Origin: Dastarcus helophoroides
Lineage: Eukaryota > Arthropoda > Insecta > Coleoptera > Bothrideridae
Assembly: GCA_028583605.1 (NCBI GenBank)
Contig: CM053332.1
Location: forward strand, 18,059,623 to 18,123,622
DNA length: 64,000 bases
Direction: 5' to 3'
A program made the position numbers and the translations under genes. The notes below the pieces were generated by a model, which saw only the letters and a program-made list of their open reading frames with translations, had not been told where the DNA came from and made no database searches. Below are positions 365 through 63,865 of the stretch, in pieces. Numbering within the stretch: position 1 is the first letter of the stretch; each line of letters begins with the position of its first letter.

Positions 365-639
365 ATTGATTTTATTTAACATTTCTACGACCCAGTTTGG
401 AAATATTTAAATTTATATTAATGTTTGTTGACAATATTCTAAAACGGTTTTTGAAATTTGACTACGTGATATCTAAATTTATTTAAAACGTCACCTTACG
501 GCAAAAAATATGTTAGTTTATTTCACATAGAATAAGAAAAAATGAAAAATAGTAGACCAAAATTAGATTTGAAAAAAATTTGTTTCCTATTTGAATAAAT
601 TATGAAAATATAAAAATAAAAATATAAAAAAAGGTTGTC

Positions 640-686
640 GCACTGGACATAGATGTTTCGCTCTCATTTGAGCTCGTCAGCAGTGC
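640..686 (-). ncRNA. Type-I hammerhead ribozyme, family A, intact core
   Basis: Read on the minus strand: GCACTG (helix I), CTGACGA, GCTC-AAATGA-GAGC (helix II), GAAA, then stem III ACAT-CT-ATGT, GTC cleavage triplet and CAGTGC closing helix I with six perfect pairs. All invariant core positions of the hammerhead consensus are present. Stem III is only 4 bp with a 2-nt loop, as in Penelope-associated hammerheads, which usually need a dimeric or stabilised fold. Compared with 62556-62602, the stem III loop differs (CT for CG) and every pair is kept. Confidence 0.88.
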
Positions 687-750
687 ATAACATGGAAAGG
701 GAACAATGATAAAGAAATATTTAAAAATAAAAAATTTAAACATATAAAAA

Positions 751-1362: not shown

Positions 1363-2856
1363 ATTGCCTAAAGTTTTCCAACAAGATGGAAAACTGCAAA
1401 AGTTATCTTCATTTCTAAGCCAGGTAAGGATGGGAAGTTTTCCCAAAATTACAGGCCAATCACCCTCTTATCCAATTTGGGTAAGGTGGCGGAAAGGATT
1501 TTAAGAAAACGTCTGCAGAATATCATCAGCGATCGCGACATAATTCCTAAGGAACAATTTGGGTTCCAACGTATGCACTCTACTTCAGACCAACTGCTGA
1601 GAGTGGTTGAAACAATCACTCAACGCATGAACTGGAACCAGGTAGTGGGAGCTATTTTCCTCGATATCTCCAAGGCATTTGACACAGTTTGGCACCAAGG
1701 ATTGGTTTACAAGATGCACCAGTTTGAAATACCTCTAACAATGGTTCAAATGGTAAGCTCGTTCCTGGACCAGCGCTCATTCAGAGCAAAGGTGGGACAG
1801 GAACTATCAAACCAATTAAGGCTACAGTATGGGGTGTCTCAAGGCTCTGCCTTGTCACCTCTGCTGTATTCTCTGTTCACAGCAGACATTCCGAGAACCA
1901 ATCCAACAATCGACCACACCTTATTGGCAACTTACGCAGACGACACAGCTTTAGTGGCGTACTCTTTCAGTCCAGAGGTGGTTACCAGACGACTTCAGGA
2001 GACAACAGACAGTCTACTAGATTACTTCGGCCAATGGGGAATCCAAGTCAACGCAGACAAGACCCAAGCAGTCTTTTTCACTCGAAAAAGACTCCAACCA
2101 TATGGACATGTGAATGTTCATGGGCAAAACGTCGACTAGTGACTTCAGGCAAAGTATCTAGGTGTCATTCTAGACAAAAGACTAACATTCCAGGCACACA
2201 TCGATTATGCAGTGTCCAGAGCCAAAATGCTGAAGGGACTGCTGCAAGCGATGATTGGTAGAAATAATAACCTGTCCATTGGACTTAAGTGTTACTATAC
2301 AAATCAATCCTAAGACCAGCGATGACCTGCGCATCTGTAGCTTGGTCACAGGCGACGGATAATCAGATGAAGAAACTCCAGGTGTTCCAGTACGTCTTTC
2401 CATGGACGCTCCATGGTTTGTGAGAAACAATCAGCTTCACATAGAAGCTGAACTACCTTTGGTAAGAGAATTTCTTAGGGAAATTAATTTTAGGGCGATG
2501 GTGAGAGCGGAAACGCATCCCAACAAACTAGTTCAACAGGCAGTGGATTACGATCCAAATATCCCAACCAGGATTAGAAGACCAAGGATGGTCCTCTAGG
2601 CTAAGACTTCCATTTCCAAAATTTTCTGTTTTGTTTGTTCTTATGTTTCAGGCAAAACAGCTTACAACAGTGCTCCAGCACTATTGTACTGTTCCGACGG
2701 AGGGATTGGGGGCCAAGGGCCCGGCCCGAAGAAGTAGGGGTTTTTAGTCGGTACCCGTAGTTTGAGCGGAAGTCCGACACTATCTGGGTTATCTTGCCAG
2801 ATGTGCGTAAAGCATTTTTCCCTACTTTAACAAAAAAAAAAAATTGCCTAAAGTTT
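1363..2856 (+). mobile_element. 5'-truncated Jockey-like non-LTR retrotransposon with 14-bp TSD
   Basis: The 14-bp sequence ATTGCCTAAAGTTT occurs at 1363-1376 and again at 2843-2856, directly after a poly-A tail (2832-2842). Between them lie a partial reverse transcriptase on the plus strand and a GC-richer 3' untranslated region (about 2600-2831). This is the classic signature of target-primed reverse transcription with 5' truncation: no endonuclease domain and no first ORF remain. Clade assignment (Jockey superclade) rests on the RT motifs only. Confidence 0.93.
1381..2599 (+). pseudogene. Reverse transcriptase fragment, Jockey-like, frameshifted
   Basis: The sense frame opens in the RT domain (KVIFISKPGKDG at about 1399, NYRPITLLS at about 1453) and runs open through 2139. 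Visible RT motifs are FLDISKAFDTVWH (first catalytic Asp), YGVSQGSALSPLLYSLF, and YADDTALVAY (catalytic Asp pair) at about 1936. After the stop at 2137-2139 the reading continues in another frame (KYLGVILDKRLTF at about 2152), breaks again, and resumes at 2402 with a C-terminal segment (DAPWFVRNNQLHIEAELP) of the kind seen downstream of RT in Jockey-like ORF2. The catalytic YADD is intact, but at least two frame breaks and the missing N-terminal half make it non-functional. A full ORF2 is usually over 900 residues. Confidence 0.92.
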
Positions 2857-4197: not shown

Positions 4198-4209
4198 ATC
4201 ATTACATTA

Positions 4210-4298
4210 TTCTTCATGGTAGACCCTTATTGACCGGAAATATTATGTTTTTTTCAATTTATTTAATTTATTTAAATGTTAAATAAATTGAAAAAAAC
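4210..4298 (-). mobile_element. Hammerhead family A terminal deletion derivative, with TSD
   Basis: It consists of the two ends of family A joined together with no ribozyme. In the A orientation (minus) it starts TGTTTTTTTCAATTTATTT and ends GGGTCTACCATGAAGAA, exactly as the complete copy at 62235-62929 does. It is flanked by the direct repeat ATCATTACATTA at 4198-4209 and 4299-4310; the outermost one or two bases are ambiguous. This copy fixes the true ends of family A and shows that a ribozyme-less form was mobilised or formed in place. Confidence 0.8.
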
Positions 4299-4310
4299 AT
4301 CATTACATTA

Positions 4311-6251: not shown

Positions 6252-8631
6252 TTATGAAGTTGTTACATTAGTTTTCTTTAGCGCATCAGGAAACATTTGA
6301 CGATGATCTTTAACTAATTGTAATACAAATTGCATTTGTTTTTCATCTTTGGTATAATGTTTACAAAAATCTTGCACTAGTTTAACTCCTCTCTCAGCAC
6401 AGTCATTTACAACCGATAGTTTTTCGACAAACCGTAATGCAGTTTTGTAGCTTTCATTTTCAGCCCATTCAGAAGGATGAATTTGTAAAAATTCTGTTTG
6501 TAACTCAAATCTTTCAAAAAATTTGATCGATTCTGCAGTTACAAAAAAATCGATATCGTTGTACAATAAATCGTTTATATTCTTGCTTTGAAAGCGTTTT
6601 ACGCTACATTTTTCACTAGTATAATCCAGCTCTTCTTCCGGAATAATATCAATTGAAATCTTGTCTTCTTCTGTATGCAGCTTAGCCACAATTTTTAATT
6701 TGGTTTCTAATGGAACATCTTCATCGAAAATTGCGATGATCGCTAACTCTGGCGATAAGTACCATAGATGATTCATAAATCTATTAATTGCTACAGTAGC
6801 AAGATTACTGTTGATCGCCTTAAAGTTGTGTAGCTCTTTTATAAATTGTAGATCATGGTACGGAGCTTTTACACTATTAGATGATAAATACCAAGCTTTA
6901 ACATAAACAGTTGTCACAAAAACACATATTTGTCGAAGTTTATTGTCTTCACCTTTTTTCAACGATAACTGTTCACGAAACAGGTACATTTTTAGCACGT
7001 AAATAGCTTTTGCCATCCACCGTGCATGATGGCAAGCTCCTGGCTTACGAAAACTAAATTTTTCTGGGATAACACCAATGAAGACTAGAGTAAGCTCCAA
7101 AAACTCTTTGTAATCATCACGAGGCAGCTTTGTTGTCAGAACTTCAGTGGCAAAAGTTTTTATAGACCTAATTTTTTCTACTGTTAACTCGTTTTTATTT
7201 CTTGGATTATCTAATCCTGTTTTGTTATTCAAAGTTTCCCATTGCTTTTGAAATCTGATAAAAAGTGGAACATTTGGCCCAACAGTATTTGGAAAAAGAG
7301 CTTCGAACACATATCTTAGGTCAATTTCGAAAATGTGATGCCTACACGGAAGATATAATAAATCTCTCTCTAATAATTTCTCCAGTAATGCAGCAGCACC
7401 ATTTCGAATGCCTAAATTTGAAGCAGTAGTATCACAGGATATTGCTTTGACAGAAGTGTCGAATCCCCAATCCAGCAATGTTTCGTGAATAATAGTAGCT
7501 TGTGCTTTTCCAGTCCCATCTTCACTCGTTGGTACACCTAACATAATTTCTTTGCCCTCTGACGTAATTATCACTGGTAATCGATGAACGGTTTCGGTAT
7601 TTAACAAATTAGGTAATAATTTTCCGTCCCAGTGTACAACAATAGATGATAAATTCAAGTCTTGGAAGTGTTTTTTTATTTCTATTGATTTTGACTCTCG
7701 CAGAGTTTGTCGTTGTCTTCGAATAGATGATCGATTGATAATCAAAGAGTTAATATCCACATCTAGTAGGTTTATATCAATAAGTGATTGACAGATAGCA
7801 GTTATTATAAATACAGCATCTCTGTCATTTACTTTACATCGATCGAAAGTAGCTACAACTCTATCACTGAGAATATTATAACTTCCTCTTGTTTTTTTTG
7901 ATTCTGATGATCCGGCAGTAGTAGGAAAGTATATTTCTCCACTAGATGCAGATAGAGCACTTCCCTGGCTAGATAAAAGTTCAACATTTTTGTCTAAAAC
8001 AAATAAGGACAATAATATGACGAATAAAATATGAATACGTGAATAAGTAATAAAAAATCTATTGATTATTTGATTCTCATAATTTACCCAATAATGCTTT
8101 TTCTTCATCACTCTTTTTTTTTCGTTTTTCAAAATGAGTTTTTTTGTTCAATTTATTAGAATTATTATCATCGTCATCATATTTTGTTTTAATATTTGCA
8201 ATAAAACCAATTCGTTCATCTGATCTCTGATTAATTAAGAATTCTTTAGAATTTTCATCAATAACTTCAACTACATTTGATGGTGCAATGTCAAATAATT
8301 TTTTTAATGAACAAACAAATTCATTTTGTTTTTTTACAGCCACGTCACTCCGATTTTTGTGTTTGACAAGTATGCGCCACTCATCGTACAATTTTTTCAA
8401 TTTATCTCGGCATCTTTGCATATCTTGAACGGGAATTTCAGCTTTTTTCCAAAACACAATAATTTCATCAATCACTGCAGCGATACTTTCTGGTACAGAA
8501 GTATTTAAAATACGTGTATGAAAAAAGAACACTTTTAGAGCTTGCAATTTCGATGGTAATTTATTACCCACTATTTGGACGTCAACATCACCAATTAAAA
8601 AGATGTTTTGACGTAAACGTGATAGTTCCAT
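6252..8631 (-). CDS. hAT-like transposase (two exons)
   Basis: Predicted to cut and paste the flanking element. Exon 1 runs 8631-8088 from ATG (MELSRLRQN). A GT...AG intron (8087-7994, 94 nt) joins it in phase to exon 2 (7993-6252), giving 2286 nt, 761 residues plus stop. The intron removes an in-frame stop (LLGKL*) and yields ...EEKALL-DKNVELLSS.... Exon 1 encodes a lysine- and acid-rich N-terminal domain ending in a basic stretch. Exon 2 carries what I read as the RNase-H-like core: VVHWDGKLLP (candidate first Asp), ISCDTTASNLG (candidate second Asp), and LPCRHHIFEI, which resembles the C-x-x-H segment of hAT proteins. The C-terminus has NDCAERGVKLVQDF, a candidate for the catalytic Glu. 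The family resembles uncharacterised hAT-like proteins of aphids and Hydra from memory; the TIR and TSD make the hAT call firmer than the protein alone does. An alternative is translation of exon 2 from its own ATG (626 residues). Confidence 0.82.
7994..8087 (-). other. Predicted 94-nt intron of the hAT transposase
   Basis: On the minus strand the donor is G|GTAAATTATG and the acceptor is CTTATTTGTTTTAG|AC, with a T-rich tract before AG. Exon 1 ends one base into a codon and exon 2 supplies the other two, giving GAC (Asp), and the frame stays open on both sides. Confidence 0.75.
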
Positions 8632-35437: not shown

Positions 35438-35811
35438 TGTTTTTTTCAATTTATTTAACATTTCTTCGGCCCAGTTTGGAAATATTTAAATTTTTTTTTT
35501 CTAATTTGTTGACAATTTTCTAAACAGTTTTTGAAATGTGACTACGTGATATTTAAATTTATTGAAAACTTCACTTCATGACAGTTCACAAATTAAGAGG
35601 TTAGTTTATTTTACATAGAATAGGAATAATGAAAAATAGGAGACCAAAAAATTAGATATGGAAAAAATAAAAATTTTGTTTTTTTGATAAATTAGAAAAA
35701 TATAAAAAAATACATAAAAAGGTTGTAGCACTGGACATCGATGTTTCGCTCTCATTTGAGCTCGTCAGCATAATATTTCCGGTCAATAAGGGTCTACCAT
35801 GAAGAATAAAA
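35438..35811 (-). mobile_element. Hammerhead family A element, copy 3, with TSD
   Basis: It starts TGTTTTTTTCAATTTATTT and ends GGGTCTACCATGAAGAATAA plus A, flanked by ACTAGGTA at 35430-35437 and 35812-35819. It keeps the left half of the complete element up to the ribozyme. At 35768, immediately after the CTGACGAG block (read on minus), it jumps to the family A right end (CATAATATTTCCGGTC). It lies within the 32.5-kb transposon and is therefore younger. Confidence 0.85.
35728..35768 (-). ncRNA. Hammerhead core, family A, helix I lost
   Basis: The minus strand has CTGACGA, GCTC-AAATGA-GAGC, GAAA, ACATCGATGT, C, CAGTGC, all as in the intact copy. The 5' helix I strand GCACTG is replaced by ATTATG, so the ribozyme cannot close helix I and is expected to be inactive in cis. 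Confidence 0.8.
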
Positions 35812-35876: not shown

Positions 35877-37269
35877 CATATCACTTGTAAACTTGATAAT
35901 TTATTTATTTATCAAAATGATTACTTATTTATTAATAAAAAAGGACTATTCTTTGATCTACGTATCCTATTGCGTGTAATAAATTTGATAACAATAACAT
36001 TTAATGGCTAGTACACGTTGGCAACAAAATTGAGGAGAACCTGTATCTCTAGACAAAGTTCTGCAATTGTCTATAAAGAAATGGGAAACAAATGGCTTGT
36101 TCTCCCTACGAACAAGCAGCAAAAATGTTTTGGAATTTTATCAATATTGATTAATAAAAATTTGAAATATTTCGAAACTGGGTCATAGAAATGTTAAATA
36201 AAATTAATAGACATAATTTTCCGATCAATAAGAGTCCACCACTGAAGAATTATGGTAATTTTAATTTACAAATTGTAAAATTTTAAGTTCTCGTACTTAA
36301 AATTAATTTAAAACTAAATAAAAACGCTCTTATTTCCTAGTTTTAAGTTTTCACCTCTGTCAGCAATCCACATTAGTGTCCCATTTTTTTTGCCTAATCT
36401 CTGGCATTTCGACTTGATTTTCAAAATTTAAATATTTCACATAAAATATTAACCTTAAACTCCAAGTATCCGATTTTATAATTGTCAAGGAAATTACTTA
36501 CATTATGAGAAAATCGACTTTCCAGAAATTTTGATTAAAAAAATCGAGTTCCCAGTCGAATTTACAAATTTATAATTTCACAAGTTTAACTTAAGATACT
36601 TTGGGAGTCGAAATATTAAAAAAAAAATGGAAATTTAAATAAAATAAAAATTGATTTAAATTTGTTTTGCCCCTTTTTTAAACAAACCTATTTTTGGAAA
36701 TTTTACAGATTTTTTTTTAGTTTTGCAGCCAAAGATTATACCAATTAAAGTATTTAACGTCGTCGATCAAAGCTTGGAATACATAAGAGAAGCAGTTCTT
36801 TAGTTTTAGTTGAGTTGCCCTAATTGCTATTTAGGAAAAATACTACGTCATTCGAATCACCTTCGTTTAAGCTGTTGACTTTGGAAAACTATAATATTTC
36901 GTCGCCCTTAAACCATCTTAAACAGCAAACTATCAAGTTACGATCCCAAATTACGATGACTTTATCGTTCGTGAAGAATATCACACATACATATATGTAT
37001 TCAAAATCGTTTGAAAGCAGCGATGAAATTAAAATTACCATAAATCAACAAGGCGCTTTAAGATTCATTTTACGAAGGAACCTAACTTATTAAAAATCAG
37101 CTGAATGTAGCGCCAGGAAGGTCAAAAGGATGTGGTACTTAGTAGTAATACTGCTGCCCATTGTTTGAGCACATTTTTTACGAGTTATATGGTAAACAAA
37201 TAGACAAGTCAGATACCAAGGAATAATAACTACTATAAAATCGAATTATTGCCATAATTTAAATGAATA
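35877..37269. other. Gene-free sequence with a diverged family A end
   Basis: About 36160-36250 (CGAAACTGGGTCATAGAAAT, GTCCACCACTGAAGAA) is a diverged right end of family A. The rest is AT-rich. An 89-codon ORF at 36824-37093 has no recognisable domain and is not called. Confidence 0.5.
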
Positions 37270-40743: not shown

Positions 40744-41515
40744 TTAAAATTATAACAAAAAATCTGAATTTTCCAGTATGAAAATGCTTAAAGTCGAAAA
40801 ATAACATTCTAGATATTTTTTTAAAGTTTTAAAGTTGAATCGAAATTTTAGAAAAATTATAGAAAAAATTCCTAAGAAAAGTTACTAAAAAATGTCTTCC
40901 TCAAAATTATGGCTTATAAAAGATTGTGTAGAGAGTCAAATATTTAAAATTTTATTCATATATCTGAATTTGAACTTTAAACTTTTAAATTCAAGGATTG
41001 TAAGAATTTTATGACAAAATCCAACTTTTTTTTGAAATTTTCGTGTTAAATCTCAAAAGATTGCTTGTATTAATTTCCAAATTTTCTTAAAATTTGAAAT
41101 TTTTTCTCAAAATGGGGAGTTAATCATAAAATCATTAACCTGCAAAATTCGATATTTTTTTATAAAACTTAAAACGTAAGATCAAAATTTCGAATAAAAT
41201 AATAGATATTTCAAGAAAGGTTTTAATTATTTAAAAAAAAAAATTAACAAATAAAGCTTAACCTTGAAATTATGAGTTTTTTTTTCGAATTTTCGACTTT
41301 TAATCGCAAAATTTTAATTTTTTCTAGAAACAACATCCCAGATTTAGAAGTCAACATTTTGGACAAAATTCGAATGAATTTAAAGTAAAAATTTTAAGAT
41401 TTGTAGTGAAAATTTGAGGATGAACTCAAAATTTTAAGTTTTTCTTCATTTGAAAATATACTACTTCTGAATGTCCTGAGTATAACCTAAATTTTTTTTT
41501 AATTTTTCAAGGTTT

Positions 41516-41518
<3 letters not shown>

Positions 41519-41576
<58 letters not shown>
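41519..41576. repeat. (CTA)n microsatellite
   Basis: About 19 uninterrupted CTA trinucleotides at one edge of the family C insertion, possibly its tail. Confidence 0.95.
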
Positions 41577-41577
<1 letters not shown>

Positions 41578-42082
41578 TAATGCACAGACCAATAGGTTTG
41601 AACATTTATTAGATTCGTTGGTAGTTCAGCTACCTATGATTCACTATACACGCCTGGAGGGCTGCATGAATTTGTAGTCTAGGTTGCATTCCTCTTGTAT
41701 ACCACATTGTTGGCGATGGCCATAGTTTCTCTATGGACCAATAGGTGGTAGTACTAAAAAGTCACTCGCTCGACGCCGGTGAATGTTTTAGTACTTACTT
41801 GTCGGAACATTTATTAGCATTCGAGTTGGATATACCAAACTGACGAGATCTAACAAGATCGAAACCGGTATTTGGTTTCCAATTCTCGAATCTAATAAAT
41901 GTTCAAACCTATTGGTCTGTGAATTATAGAATCCTTTTCTTCTGGGAACTCTCCTAGAGAGCAAGCGCTTCACTAGGTGGGTAGTGTTTCAAATGTTGGT
42001 AGTTCAGCTTATACCTATGATTCCACTATACACGCCTGGAGGGCTGCATGAATTTGTAGTCTAGGTTGCATTCTTCTTGCAA
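41520..42082. mobile_element. Hammerhead family C insertion (retrozyme-like), 11-bp TSD
   Basis: AAGGTTTTACT occurs at 41509-41519 and 42083-42093, bracketing a 563-bp insertion in the E repeat. The insertion holds a CTA microsatellite at its left end, then 1.2 copies of a 378-bp unit: TTGGTAGTTCAGC...GGTTGCATTC occurs at 41618-41693 and 41996-42072. One hammerhead per unit lies at 41834-41876. The unit is rich in inverted repeats (for example ACCAATAGGTTTGAAC near 41588 against GTTCAAACCTATTGGT near 41900). A unit longer than one period flanked by a TSD is what integration of a circular or multimeric RNA copy would give. No ORF. Confidence 0.8.
41834..41876 (+). ncRNA. Type-I hammerhead ribozyme, family C, intact core
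   Basis: ACCAAA (helix I) is followed by CTGACGA, GATC-TAACAA-GATC (helix II), GAAA, CCGGT forming with the last A the palindrome ACCGGT (stem III), A at the cleavage position, and TTTGGT closing helix I by six perfect pairs. Outer complementarity (ATTCGAG at about 41817 with CTCGAAT at about 41883) could extend helix I. Every consensus core position is satisfied. The sequence differs from families A and B outside the core. Confidence 0.85.
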
Positions 42083-42237
42083 AAGGTTTTACTTGTTAAT
42101 TGAAAGTTTTGGCCTGTTAATGCATGTTTTTAAGGGTCTTTTACCTTTTTAGTGCCATTTTTAACTGTTCGCTTTGCCTAATTTAACAGTTTGCTCACCT
42201 TTTTACCTTACTTGATTGTGCCTAAAATCCGGTCTCT

Positions 42238-51640: not shown

Positions 51641-53640
51641 TATATACTAGTTGATGATGTTCCTTAACTCTACTTACTTAACTTATCCCTACTCACTACT
51701 GTCACGACCAGCACTTTATAGTGTTAAATGTATCGATTTTTTTTAATTCCGACATTTTTCCAAAATTTCGATTCCTTTTGAAATTGTCGTCAAAAATTTC
51801 GTCTTTCAACATTTCGATTTTTGTTACAAATTTGAAATTTTTTAAAAACGTTGGATTTTCAGAATGGTTGAATTTCCCTCAAAATTCCGATTTATTTCAA
51901 AATTTTGAGTTTTCTATCAATATCAAAATATTATTTAACCCAAATTTCGAAAAACGTTAAACCCTGTATATTTCAACATTTCGGCTTTTTTAAAATGTTC
52001 GACATTGTTTTTAATATTTCAACAACCAAAATTTTAACACTGCTCAAATTTTTAACTTTTTCAACATTTTGACTTTCTTGAACACTTTTACCTTTCTCTT
52101 CATTTCTATTATTTTTTAAATTTTACTTTTCAAAAATTTCAGGTTTGTTTCATTGACACCTGACAAAAAAAAAACTAAAAAGGCCGATTTTAATTCAAAA
52201 TTGAGACTTTTTCAAAATTTTGACTTGTCAAAAATTGAGCTGTTGACAACATCTTCAAATTGTTTCAAAACTTTTATTTATCATTTTAAAAATTTCGACT
52301 TTTTTAAATTTTTACTTTTCCAAAAATGTTTGTTTTTACAATTTTGTTTTTTTTTCAAATATTCGACTTTTTTGATAATTTTGGCATTTCTTCACTATTT
52401 TTACCTTTAAAGATGTCGACTGTATTTAAACATTTGGCCCCAATACTTCAATTTTGTTAAATCTCAAATATTTACATAATTTTGACTATTTTTGAAATTT
52501 TGGAATTTTGCATTTTTTTAAAAATTTCAAATTCTCGAAAGTTCAAATTTACTATTTTAGAAAACTTTTACTAGTTATCGAATTTTAAATTTTCTTTAAT
52601 TTAAAATTTAGAAATTTCGGTATTTTTTCAAATTTTTATTTTTTTTTAAATATTGGCTTTTTCTAAATTTTGATATTTTCTTGAAAATCCCAATTTTTTT
52701 TTGAAAAATTCTTTTTTTTTATAAAAATTTTGCTTGTCTTGAAAATAATAATTTTTTAATTTTCAAAAATAAAAATTTTTGAAAATTTTGACTTTCAAAT
52801 TTTCGACTTTTTCAAAGTTTTAATCCTTTGCAAATATCTCTAAAATTTTCACTCGTTTTTAAAATGTCAACTGTTTTCTAAATTTTTTTCCACTTTAAGT
52901 TTTTAATTGTTACTTCTCATCAATCAAGTCCCAATTTCGCAAACAGAAGAAGAAAAAAATAAAGACGTTGTTTCAGAAAAATTAAGAAAAATATAAATAA
53001 AACTTAAATGCTAACTAAAAAAGCTTAAGAAAAAAACCAAATTTTGACATTAAATTGATATTTATGAAAACAAAATAAAAATAAAAGAAAGTTTGATCAT
53101 TTTTTCATAAATGTCGAGTTTTACTCGAAATTTTCGTTTTTTTCTCAAAATTCTAAGTTTACATTTTTCAATTCTTATATTTTTGAGACTAAACTAGAAA
53201 TTTTGGAAAGGAATCGAAATTTAAAAATGTATTTAAAAATTTTAAGATAAAAGATGGACAAATCTGGATCGGATAAACAAGAAAACACTTATTATTTCAA
53301 AGAATCGAAAAGCTTACAGTCAAAATTTCAGGAGAAACGTGAAAATTAAATTTTGGCTCAATAAGATAAAATTTTAAAAGATTGAAAAAACACAAAATTC
53401 AAAAACTTCAAGAAAGTCAAAATTTTGAAAAGAAGTAAGTTTAAAAAAATAGCTTTTTAAAAAATTGAAAAATTGTGAACCCAAAGAAATTTAAGAAGGG
53501 ATCAAACTTAAAAAACTGAAATATTAATTAGAAATTTAAAGCTGCAAAGGTCGAAATTTCGAAAATAAGACATAACTTTCAACAAAAAGTCTTAATTTTG
53601 AGAAGCAGTCGAAAATTTGAAAAATGGTTGAAAATTTTGA
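51641..53640. repeat. AT-rich degenerate tract
   Basis: 51720-52860 is T-rich on the plus strand (TTTTTGACTTTT-type words); 52960-53640 switches to A-rich. No ORF with recognisable domains was found. The body type is the same as inside the 27-kb, 32.5-kb and 44.3-kb transposons, but no TIR was found. Confidence 0.55.
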
Positions 53641-53652
53641 TAAAAGTGAAAA

Positions 53653-53708
53653 TTGTATTGTATTTCAATTTTTGAAGATAACCAAGGATCAGTCTGTTCC
53701 ACCAAAAT
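53653..53708 (+). mobile_element. Hammerhead family B 3' end
   Basis: TTGTATTTCAATTTTTGAAG, ATAACCAAGGATCAGTCTGT and TCCACCAAAAT form the terminal part of a B right arm without the ribozyme. It directly precedes the CTGT microsatellite. Confidence 0.75.
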
Positions 53709-53715
53709 ATAAGTA

Positions 53716-54304
<589 letters not shown>

Positions 54305-55235
54305 CTGATCATTTGTCCAGGCTAACCTCGGAAACTGCTAAATTGATTTTAATAAAACTTCTACTAAAATGTAGAGTATTTTTAGGAGTATCTTCTAAGC
54401 TAGTTTTAGTCTGGAATAACCTACCATTTCACTTCTAAAAACTTAACTGTTTCAACCATTTTACTTGAGAATATAACATAGAACCTAAAAAAAGTAACCA
54501 ATCCGCAATGTATATGGCTTATATAATATTGGACGCTAATTTAACTGCGTTAAACTTTGTTTTTATTGTTACATTACCACAGAATATAAAACAACGAAAT
54601 AAATATCGGTATTCAAAAGGTTTTCAGAGTCGTGAAAATTCAATAGTTTTCCACCTTACAGGGCAGGATTTACCAGACACTTAAAACTCATTTGAATAAT
54701 CTTAAAAAAGGAATATCAGAAATAGCGAAGTGGAAGTTAGAAACTCGATATACGACCACCGCAATAAACGGAAACTGTATGAGAAATTCAGCAAACTCTT
54801 CACATTGTAAATCACTTTACTTCCGTATAGTTGCACACCAATCTTTCGGAATTCGATTTGACTGTTACAACACGGGATTAAACCCAAATTTTCATACAAT
54901 TAACGAACTGCATCGTCATGGAGAACATCGGAGATAATCAAAATTACGGTTGTTTTAAATTGAATAATCGAATTGCGCAAATGTGACGAATTAATCCGAT
55001 TTCCTTCATTTTCAGAGCTCGAAACGAACGAACGTCTTGCAAATAGTTGTGGAGTCGTAATGAATAAAGTTTTCCTCGTCAATTTACAGTTAAAGAAATA
55101 CCTGTCTTACAGATTGTTTGTGTTTCTGTTCGTAAAAGTTTAACTGCTTGAGTTTCCTGTGAAATAATTTCAGTGTCCCTCTTTAAAAAAAAACTATTTA
55201 TTAAATACATGGAACAAACAGGTTGGTTATATGTA
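54305..55235. other. Gene-free, with a segment paired to 60.9-61.1 kb
   Basis: 54685-54905 resembles 60925-61145 in the same orientation: AGCGAAGTGGAAGTTAGAAA against TGCTAAGTGGAAATTAGAAA, and CAAATTTTCATACAATTA against CAAATTTTCACACAATTA. Small ORFs in the two copies do not encode the same protein. Function unknown. Confidence 0.5.
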
Positions 55236-61339: not shown

Positions 61340-61900
61340 CGCAAATGGCAACCCCATTATGCTTTCAGAGGATTGCGAGTAGAATAGATGAGAGTGAACT
61401 GCCTTCTTAAACATGGATTCTTGTGGAAAATGTGTTTTAGTAACGAGTTCCATAACTTGAAAGTTCTACAGAAAACAGAGTCTCCGCTAACAGAAGACCT
61501 CACTGTGTCAGGCTGGATCGCACAGGATATTGCTGTCTCCGACTGTCTTGCATGCATCAAAAAGCTTGCCCTTGGGGGATCAATCCTATTAGCTCCTGCG
61601 AGAATTCCCATGATAGTATTGGTAGAAAAGAGACAAGTCACCAACCATCCACCTGTGCTCTAATCTTTTGGGAGAATCGATCAAACTCTCGTCATCAGCC
61701 AGGCAAATCGTTCTCCTTTGAAATGAAACCAAAAGAGCTAAAGTGTGGTTTGGGGCCAAACTTCAAACATGAAAACAGTACTCTTGTGTTGGTCCAACTT
61801 GATAGTCTGAGTAGGTGATGAGACGTAAAGTACTTTTTAGCTCTAAAAGGAAAACCCAGCTTCTGAAAGACGGACCCACATGACCGTCCCAAGAGAAGTT
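61340..61900 (-). pseudogene. Non-LTR retrotransposon C-terminal fragment
   Basis: Minus strand: QKLGFPFRAKKYFTSHHLLR at about 61865-61810 and, in another frame, ILAGANRIDPPRASFLMHAR and LWNSLLKHIFHKN toward 61357. Same family as 20025-20822 and 22490-23260. Frame breaks and internal loss make it dead. Its beginning is folded into the palindrome at 61801-61987. Confidence 0.8.
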
Positions 61901-61987
61901 AGTGTGCGGTCATGTGGGTCCGTCTTTCAGAAGCTGGGTTTTCCTTTTAGAGCTAAAAAGTACTTTACATCAACTACTCAGACTATC
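61801..61987. repeat. Near-perfect palindrome of about 80-bp arms
   Basis: 61801-61886 and 61907-61987 are reverse complements (GACGGACCCACATGACCG against CGGTCATGTGGGTCCGTC), with a 20-bp spacer. The arms derive from the non-LTR fragment. The right arm abuts the family B array at 61988. Confidence 0.95.
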
Positions 61988-62234
61988 AATCGATATTAAT
62001 ATCATGGAGAGATACTATATCTTAGTATCTCAGTATCTTTAAAAATTGAAATATTCACAAAAAACCTTAATGAAAAAAGTCAAAAGGTCGAAATCTTGAA
62101 ATAAAGCACAGAATTTCCAAAAAAAATCGAATTTACAAAGAAAAAGCAAAATTTCAGAAAGTCGGAATTCTAATTAAATATCGAACTTTCAAAAAAAACC
62201 GAGAAGGATTTTTACTTTTGACAAATGATGAAAA

Positions 62235-62929
62235 TGTTTTTTTCAATTTATTTAACATTTCTTCGGCCCAGTTTGGAAATATTTAAATTTTTTATGGTTT
62301 GTTGACAATTTTCTAAACAATTTTTGTTCGACCCACAAGTGTAGTTCAATGCCGGAAGGGGTATTAGGCCTCGGAGTAGTTGTTTCTTGTGGATCGGGCT
62401 TCAAATATTTAAATTTTTAACACAGTAAATTTTTAACACAGTAAATTGATGATGAAACGTCTATTCATGTTAAAATTTCTTCATTTTTCTTTTTTATATT
62501 TTAAAATTTTTTTATTTTTAAGTATTTCTTCCTCATTGTTCCCTTTCCATGTTATGCACTGCTGACGAGCTCAAATGAGAGCGAAACATCGATGTCCAGT
62601 GCTACAACCTTTTCTATGTATTTTTTTATATTTTCCTAATTTATCAAAAATATAAAAAATTTTATTTTTTTCATATCCAATTTTTGGTCTCCTATTTTTC
62701 ATTATTCCTATTCTATGTAAAATAAACTAACCTCTTAATTTGTAAACTGTCATGAAGTGACGTTTTCAATAAATTTAAATATCACGTAGTTGCATTTCAA
62801 AAATTGTTTAGAAAATTGTCAACAAACCATAAAAAATTTAAATATTTCCAAACTGGGCCGAAGAAATGTTAAATAAATTGAAAAAAACATAATATTTCCG
62901 GTCAATAGGGGTCTACCATGAAGAATAAA
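62235..62929 (+). mobile_element. Complete hammerhead family A element, with TSD
   Basis: Flanked by GATGAAAA (62227-62234, 62930-62937); the uninterrupted target is seen at 16905-16925, which confirms insertion. It starts TGTTTTTTTCAATTTATTT. About 92-bp inverted arms lie at 62235-62326 and about 62799-62890. The element then extends about 39 bp beyond the right arm, ending GGGTCTACCATGAAGAATAA plus A. The ribozyme is at 62556-62602. No ORF. It is asymmetric: only one end carries the ATATTTCCGGTC extension and A-rich terminus. Confidence 0.9.
62556..62602 (+). ncRNA. Type-I hammerhead ribozyme, family A, intact
   Basis: GCACTG (62556-62561) pairs with CAGTGC (62597-62602). CTGACGA is at 62562-62568. 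Helix II is GCTC/GAGC around AAATGA (62569-62582). GAAA is at 62583-62586. Stem III is ACAT/ATGT with a 2-nt CG loop, and the predicted cleavage is after C62596 (GTC). All consensus core nucleotides are present and all stems are perfect, making this the best candidate in the window for in vitro self-cleavage. Confidence 0.92.
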
Positions 62930-63865
62930 AGATGAAAACTTAAAAAATTGCAAAAATTTTCAAAAATATCCAATTTTTGAAAAATGATCAAATTAAAAAA
63001 TGGAGTTACTCAAAAAATAAAAAAAATTTAATTTCCCAAAACTTAAAAAAGTCGTAACTTTCATAAAAGTTAGCTTTTTAAAAAATCAGAAATTTGAAAT
63101 AATTCTGGATTCTCCAATGCCAGAATTATTAATAAAGTCATACTTTTTAATAAAACTCATAATCTCCAAAAAAAAGTCGAAATTCAAAAAATAAAATTTC
63201 GAGAAGAGAAAGTTGAAATTTTGAAAAAAATAGATAAACATTTTATAGGAGCCTATATCTTTATTTTGGTGAAACGGACTGATCCTTGGTTACCTTCAAA
63301 AATTGGAATACAAATCTTGTCCCCTGAAATCAGGAAAGATTAAAAAAACACAACAGAGGTTGCTCCAACTCGTCAGAATTCTAATTAAAAATCGAACTTT
63401 CAAAAAAAACCGAGAAAAATTTTCACTTTTGTGAAAAGATGAAAACTTACAAAATTGCAAAAATTTTCAAAAATATCCAATTTTTAAAAAATGAACAAAA
63501 TAAAAAATGGAGTTACCCAAAAAATAAAAAACTTTTGAAGTCTTAACTTTTAAAAAAAGCCTACTTTCATAAAAGTTGGCTTTTTAAAAAATCAGAAATT
63601 TGAAATAATTCAAGATTCTCAAATGCCAGAATTATTAATAGAGTCATAATTTTTAATAAAACCCATAATCTTCAAAAAAGTCGAAATTCAAAAAACAAAA
63701 CTTCAAAAAGAGAAAATTGAAATTTAAAAAAAAATAAGTAAAAATTTTATAGAAGCCTAAATCTTTATTTTGGTGAAACGGACTGGTCCTTGGTTATCTT
63801 CAAAAATTGGAATACAAATCTTGTCCCCTGAAATCAAGAAAAATTAAAAAACACAACAGAGGTTG

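Follow-up and report, generated by a model that had tools for sequence, protein, structure and literature searches.

How does a short insertion with no evident coding capacity and with a hammerhead ribozyme motif spread through a beetle genome, and what does the ribozyme contribute to its movement? Hammerheads occur in the terminal repeats of Penelope elements and in animal retrozymes. The question is raised here by a locus near the right end of a 64,000-nucleotide stretch of the Dastarcus helophoroides genome, which was analysed as a whole and is referred to below as the window. Two motifs of one family (family A) are central to it:

62556-62602, plus strand: type I hammerhead motif of copy A1, with predicted cleavage after C62596 (unit position u382)
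640-686, minus strand: hammerhead motif of an older copy, A2, reported by both a descriptor and Rfam

All of the core bases (CUGACGA, GAAA and GUC) are present on the plus strand at 62556-62602, together with stem I (GCACUG/CAGUGC, 6 bp), stem II (GCUC/GAGC, 4 bp) and stem III (ACA/UGU, 3 bp, closed by a 4-nt UCGA loop), and the open end lies in stem I, as in type I hammerheads. A preliminary description had proposed an intact core and three paired helices, and both direct reading and a strict descriptor bear this out; the descriptor reports three hammerheads in the window, at 639-687 (minus), 41834-41876 (plus) and 62556-62602 (plus), and gives 0 matches in 60 first-order simulated windows. 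A pattern scan of viral contigs gave 0 matches. The Rfam family Hammerhead_HH9 (RF02275) aligns with A1 over its full length (model positions 1-77 of 77) and shares the core and stem II with it; the match scores 38.3 bits, with an E-value of 3.7e-6 when the entire window is searched and of 4e-8 when the element is searched by itself. The search of Rfam hammerhead models that had been proposed as a check thus returns a match, but one under the gathering score of 52, and no Rfam family reaches its gathering score anywhere in the window. A further difference from HH9 is that outer stem I is unpaired in family A and paired in a second family, B, described below. Folding, likewise proposed as a check, went against the motif, in that the minimum-energy structure predicted for the isolated A1 47-mer (-12.9 kcal/mol) is something other than a hammerhead, the native hammerhead fold being at -10.4 kcal/mol. 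When two A1 copies are co-folded the best structure is a double hammerhead in which a 10-bp stem III is common to both (-37.1 versus 2 x -12.9 kcal/mol), a fold also given by 11 of 200 controls with shuffled stem III letters, and not predicted for dimers of A2 or of family B. The motif at 62556-62602 is genuine as a sequence motif, and its self-cleavage is predicted.

The insertion around this motif, and other family A copies in the window, are as follows:

62235-62926: copy A1, a two-armed insertion with the hammerhead (locus L009 of the genome set described below)
62235-62326, minus strand: left arm of A1, the unit in reverse complement, running upwards from the inner site (u674), by the segmentation of L009
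62327-62926, plus strand: right arm of A1, covering about u111 to the outer site (u710), hammerhead included, by the same segmentation
62890-62926, plus strand: 37-nt tail of A1, between the inner (u673) and outer (u710) sites, at one end only
62223-62234 (left) and 62927-62938 (right): target duplication of A1, an 11/12 match with an 8-bp exact core
366-780 and 955-1106: pieces of the A2 element, about 76-82% identical to A1
35438-35807: copy A3, a left arm from inner site to motif joined straight to the tail, with flanks AAAGACTAGGTA and AAAAACTAGGTA
35732-35770, minus strand: partial hammerhead motif of A3, with one stem I strand missing (23.5 bits, E 0.21)
4209-4299, minus strand: copy A4, a tiny copy consisting of the tail and a short fold-back, flanked by TCATTACATT (4199-4208 and 4300-4309)
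36120-36250, plus strand: copy A5, older and 5'-truncated, with the tail

The inverted arms of A1 are perfect over 93 nt (62234-62326 and 62798-62890), and none of the 73 stop-to-stop frames of at least 75 aa listed in the window overlaps A1, in agreement with the lack of coding capacity reported at first. The element had been placed at 62235-62929 with an 8-bp target duplication; it is corrected here to 62235-62926, and a 12-bp duplication with a single mismatch is the better reading. The second copy at 640-686 on the minus strand is indeed intact and differs from A1 in its stem III loop, but that is the only base of the motif that differs, and it therefore lends little weight to the pairing. 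Features now added to that first account are the 93-nt arms, A3 with its partial motif, A4, and the second hammerhead family at 41834. Read directly, A1, A3 and A4 each end at the inner site on one side and at the outer site on the other.

Viewed alone, A1 resembles a MITE, that is, a small DNA transposon, bounded by long terminal inverted repeats and 8-bp duplications, with a hammerhead inside it by chance, since it has 93-nt perfect inverted repeats with GATGAAAA on both sides. Copies elsewhere in the genome give a different picture. We searched the 538.9-Mb assembly (50 contigs) that contains the window, a genome-wide survey having been called for in the preliminary description, and near-identical family A copies proved to be many. 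A 150-nt query from the A1 3' end gave 655 first-look candidates, the best 40 of which, when scored, yielded 43 matches at 96-100% identity, and a query across the sequence that follows the tail gave 1017, with 40 matches at 98-100% identity from the best 40; these high identities among so many candidates indicate that family A is both young and numerous. A query with the motif gave 11 places, two of the three window copies not among them, so its counts are lower bounds. The copies run on past the tail and then re-enter the element with a 710-bp tandem period, which defines a unit of 710 nt with one hammerhead; units occur both in tandem and head to head, with at least 3.6 in a row at one locus (L079). 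The unit has a GC content of 30.6%, and its longest stop-to-stop frame, when doubled, is 68 aa. It has neither the reverse transcriptase frame nor the GIY-YIG domain of an autonomous Penelope-like element, and it does have the non-coding tandem units and type I hammerhead of a metazoan retrozyme. A start position that many copies seemed to share within the unit was merely the join of the query's own two arms.

For the anatomy of the insertions we took 60 unit loci, 30 each from the best 40 of the 655 and the best 40 of the 1017 candidates, dropped six as the same place (L024, L051, L052, L073, L074 and L080), and segmented the remaining 54 against the unit on both strands. The sample holds only the best-scoring family A copies; the first query covers both sites and selects tailed copies, and the second, which extends across the outer site, is biased towards long ones. 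The usual form is head to head, a minus-strand left arm and a plus-strand right arm of variable lengths, and 37 of the 38 two-ended insertions pair an inner end with an outer one, at sites 37 nt apart, and so show the combination of one-sided 30-40-bp tail and inverted partial copy that typifies Penelope insertions. Twenty of these are inner-left/outer-right and 17 outer-left/inner-right; one is outer/outer (L016, which is also without a clear duplication) and none is inner/inner. In Penelope elements, too, the tail may sit on either side. Loci from the query that contains no insertion end were mixed in 18 of 18 cases. These figures come from a classification in which 'outer' was widened to u30 and three-arm chains were admitted; a stricter first version, applied to another set of 38 (simple two-arm insertions), gave 32 mixed and six with one end 'other', two of which (L028 and L065) have a spurious AT-rich arm and are kept among the 90 ends considered below. 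Exact target duplications of at least 8 bp, short as in Penelope-type insertions, flank 35 of the 38 (median 12), against 4.6% of pairs when flanks are shuffled between loci, and are mostly 9-16 bp long with a mode of 12, some of these lengths taking in 1-5 bases that belong to the element end. The copies are thus variable two-armed products of a 710-nt unit, found also in tandem and with duplications of about 12 bp, rather than the single discrete element with precise ends first envisaged. A MITE would have fixed repeats and a fixed duplication length; here the inverted arms vary in length and joining point, tandem and multi-unit copies exist, 37 extra bases are always at one end, and the duplications vary, and we regard a MITE as extremely improbable.

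The one-sided tail, the inverted partial copies and the two adjacent start sites together make up the published signature of Penelope-like elements, and for this reason we conclude that family A is very probably a non-autonomous retroelement that a Penelope-like protein, with reverse transcriptase and GIY-YIG endonuclease, copies in trans. The first description had called it a mobile element without open reading frames and hinted at Penelope-like elements and retrozymes, and the anatomy of the ends supports it in this. Twin priming by a LINE also yields inverted 5' parts, and a SINE-like element moved in that way, rather than by a Penelope-like protein, might draw on a reverse transcriptase such as the LINE-type one (by eye) encoded in the window:

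1372-2139, plus strand: reverse transcriptase frame (PF00078, RVT_1, E 1.4e-35)

We consider this source of movement very unlikely, as the two arms have fixed internal starts, the inner site for one and the outer for the other, a poly(A) tail is absent, and the tail is found in either orientation (20 and 17 of 38); internal starts are moreover described as unique to Penelope-like elements (PMC11167929). According to the same source, purified Penelope-like protein cuts and extends both strands, with two adjacent internal reverse-transcription starts that explain the tail. In rotifer Penelope elements (PMC3846280) the inverted terminal repeat falls 37 bp short of the direct repeats, one of the inverted repeats carries a 31-bp tail, duplications measure 8-10 bp, and unrelated sequence can be mobilised in trans.

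Coding Penelope-like elements are themselves frequent in this genome, and their terminal sequence serves as a positive control. GIY-YIG searches gave at least 91 matches (150 of 1070 candidates scored), and three larger regions fetched around such matches contain frames with both RVT_1 and GIY-YIG. The family C sequences of the window have their counterpart in one of these regions (L083), about 100 nt downstream of the reverse transcriptase/GIY-YIG frame; an example from the window is:

750-944: a family C copy, terminal sequence belonging to a coding Penelope-like element; one of its ends is inner, the other outer

Among nine two-arm family C copies in the window, from which the family's inner and outer sites were themselves defined, six pair an inner with an outer end, the other three pair an inner end with one that falls 14-23 nt short of the outer site, and in no copy are the two ends of the same kind. 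Family C abounds in the window, with 30 BLAST pieces located between 750 and 64000 and cores of the form CTGAAGA...GAAACG. These cores were considered as a further hammerhead family and rejected: the descriptor does not report them and Rfam is silent on the one in L083; they are the terminal sequence of the coding Penelope-like element. Twelve GIY-YIG loci (L039-L050) and the three larger regions yielded no autonomous element that has its tail or unit in common with family A; the unit gave a weak 65% match in L046 and a single strong match, an inserted family A piece, in L081.

Among known systems, family A resembles Penelope/Poseidon-type elements with GIY-YIG (PMC3846280 and PMC11167929) in having direct and shorter inverted terminal repeats, a one-sided 30-40-bp tail, a short target duplication, partial tandems and a hammerhead in the terminal repeat; it differs in the position of the motif, which precedes the inner site by about 290 nt (u382 to u673), in a unit without a reading frame, and in its hundreds of young copies. 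With metazoan non-LTR retrozymes it shares a non-coding tandem unit, a type I hammerhead, a GC content under 50% (0.306 in family A) and duplications of more than 4 bp; it differs in its unit of 710 nt, against a reported 170-400 nt that is not strictly defining and within which family B (about 382) falls (PMC7229834), and in its head-to-head arms and tail. In Adineta vaga, unrelated sequences have moved with Penelope terminal repeats on either side of them (PMC3846280); there, as here, terminal sequences are enough for integration in trans, but those cases are single captures of other DNA, whereas family A is numerous and self-similar.

Transcription of tandem family A copies would on this basis give multimeric RNA. 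The helper protein would cut both target strands; one of them would prime reverse transcription at the inner site and the other would do so at the outer site, and the two cDNAs would halt at arbitrary points and then be joined head to head. Since 37 of 38 insertions have one start site per strand, a coupled, perhaps dimeric, complex is suggested. The hammerhead may cut the multimers to unit length, perhaps as a dimer through the self-complementary stem III ACAUCGAUGU, and the cut pieces may be re-ligated into circles, the RNA that enters the genome being one that is uncut, or re-ligated, at the ribozyme site.

The arms bear on this last step. Of 90 arms, 54 cross the cleavage site and 27 are longer than one unit (long ones being favoured by the second query), and only one ends within 5 nt of the cleavage site, where 1.3 are expected. 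Because the arm ends do not gather at the cleavage site and the arms read through it, ribozyme-cut linear RNA is not the usual template; the copied RNA is uncut or re-ligated there, and both uncut multimers and re-ligated circles are compatible with the data. The retrozyme model, in other respects the same as the explanation preferred here, holds that the template is unit RNA in circular form, produced by the hammerhead together with a ligase of the host, and that the ribozyme is needed for spread. The arms exceeding one unit would fit it, as would the divergence between units of one insertion, which is the same whether they are compared between arms in the same pass (2.3%), between arms in different passes (2.0%) or between passes of one arm (2.3%), as against 4.4% between insertions. 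Transcripts of homogeneous tandem arrays would look the same, however, and such arrays exist (L079); moreover, 3 of 2243 sites split the units two versus two, in insertion L066 and array L079, which is unexpected from a single circle without later change and hints at heterogeneous templates or later gene conversion. We regard the circular template as possible, if somewhat doubtful. The class-splitting sites are u569 and u631 in L066 and u314 and u342 in L079. Odd-one-out counts among units are 23, 23 and 10 at 1805 sites. Raw BLAST pieces had made successive units in one cDNA appear more different than two arms, a pattern that would exclude a circular template, and the cleaner segmentation did not bear this out.

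That the hammerhead is an inactive relic, and that the element moves without it, would agree with the scatter of arm ends away from the cleavage site, with the predicted alternative fold of the isolated monomer, and with the 13 of 71 full passes that fail the descriptor; in PMC11167929, ribozyme mutants of a Penelope-like element left in vitro insertion unaffected. Yet the motif is intact in 58 of the 71 full passes and in 45 of the 48 loci that have one, and it varies less (0.82%, 29/3524) than the rest of the unit (2.0%, 589/29351) in an informal comparison, not a formal test, in which A/T runs were masked and copies share history. Older copies, which were found by the motif itself, do not enter into this comparison. 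An intact and less variable motif speaks for maintenance in the source copies.

Family B also argues against a relic:

41834-41876, plus strand: family B hammerhead motif, found by the descriptor and matched by Rfam at 33.9 bits (E 9.9e-5)
41520-42082, plus strand: family B insertion with a left arm and a 382-bp period, flanked by AAGGTTTTACT (41509-41519 and 42083-42093)

Relative to A, pairs are changed on both sides at 5 of 6 positions in stem I, 1 of 4 in stem II and 1 of 3 in stem III, so that all helices are retained with different base pairs; automatic alignment of the two families misplaced stem III. Taken together, these observations make a relic unlikely. Stem III of B is the palindrome ACCGGU without a loop, and it could therefore pair only between two molecules or units. 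The insertion has a 43-nt inverted repeat (41575-41617 and 41887-41929), its period of about 382 bp rests on one pair of repeats, and in the genome 40 scored of 244 candidates gave 41 matches at 96-100% identity, some as close opposite-strand pairs. Family B is also present in the flanks of four family A loci (L021, L022, L025 and L038), with two copies head to head in L038. Runs of ACT/AGT triplets mark the left end of the B insertion (41520-41574) and are seen again at about 786-800, at the arm junction of a family C copy; they possibly reflect slippage where arms or ends were joined.

A young and numerous hammerhead family with a Penelope signature at its insertion ends bears on how animal ribozyme elements move. 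The repeats of hammerhead elements show no motif revealing the helper, according to a 2020 review (PMC7761336), and a paper of the same year proposes Penelope-like elements only as a strong candidate helper (PMC7229834). We found no report of a Penelope end signature on a non-coding hammerhead unit in the literature searched, which lacked most subscription papers, including key ones of 2014, 2017 and 2021 on Penelope hammerheads. With this signature on family A, the helper question can be put to the test, using purified protein, an RNA that is now defined and the two start sites mapped on it, and the rule that insertions pair an inner with an outer end narrows the possible mechanisms of Penelope-like elements, about which little is known. 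A wider proposal, which we advance tentatively as close to an even chance, is that animal hammerhead retrozymes are non-autonomous Penelope-like elements, that one coupled complex starts one cDNA at an inner and one at an outer RNA site, one for each DNA strand, and that the hammerhead would work mainly in dimeric form, to trim or sense multimeric RNA rather than to set template ends.

Other features of the window deserve mention. Near A1 is a near-perfect hairpin (61822-61971) with 65-bp arms (98%), a 20-nt spacer and sub-threshold microRNA matches; the Rfam microRNA matches were rejected as chance, and they sit in inverted-repeat hairpins or score far under thresholds. A 631-aa frame at 6252-8147 on the minus strand has no Pfam match at E 0.001, and a long simple repeat at 53579-54438 is open in several frames, with VCLS and QTDR repeats.
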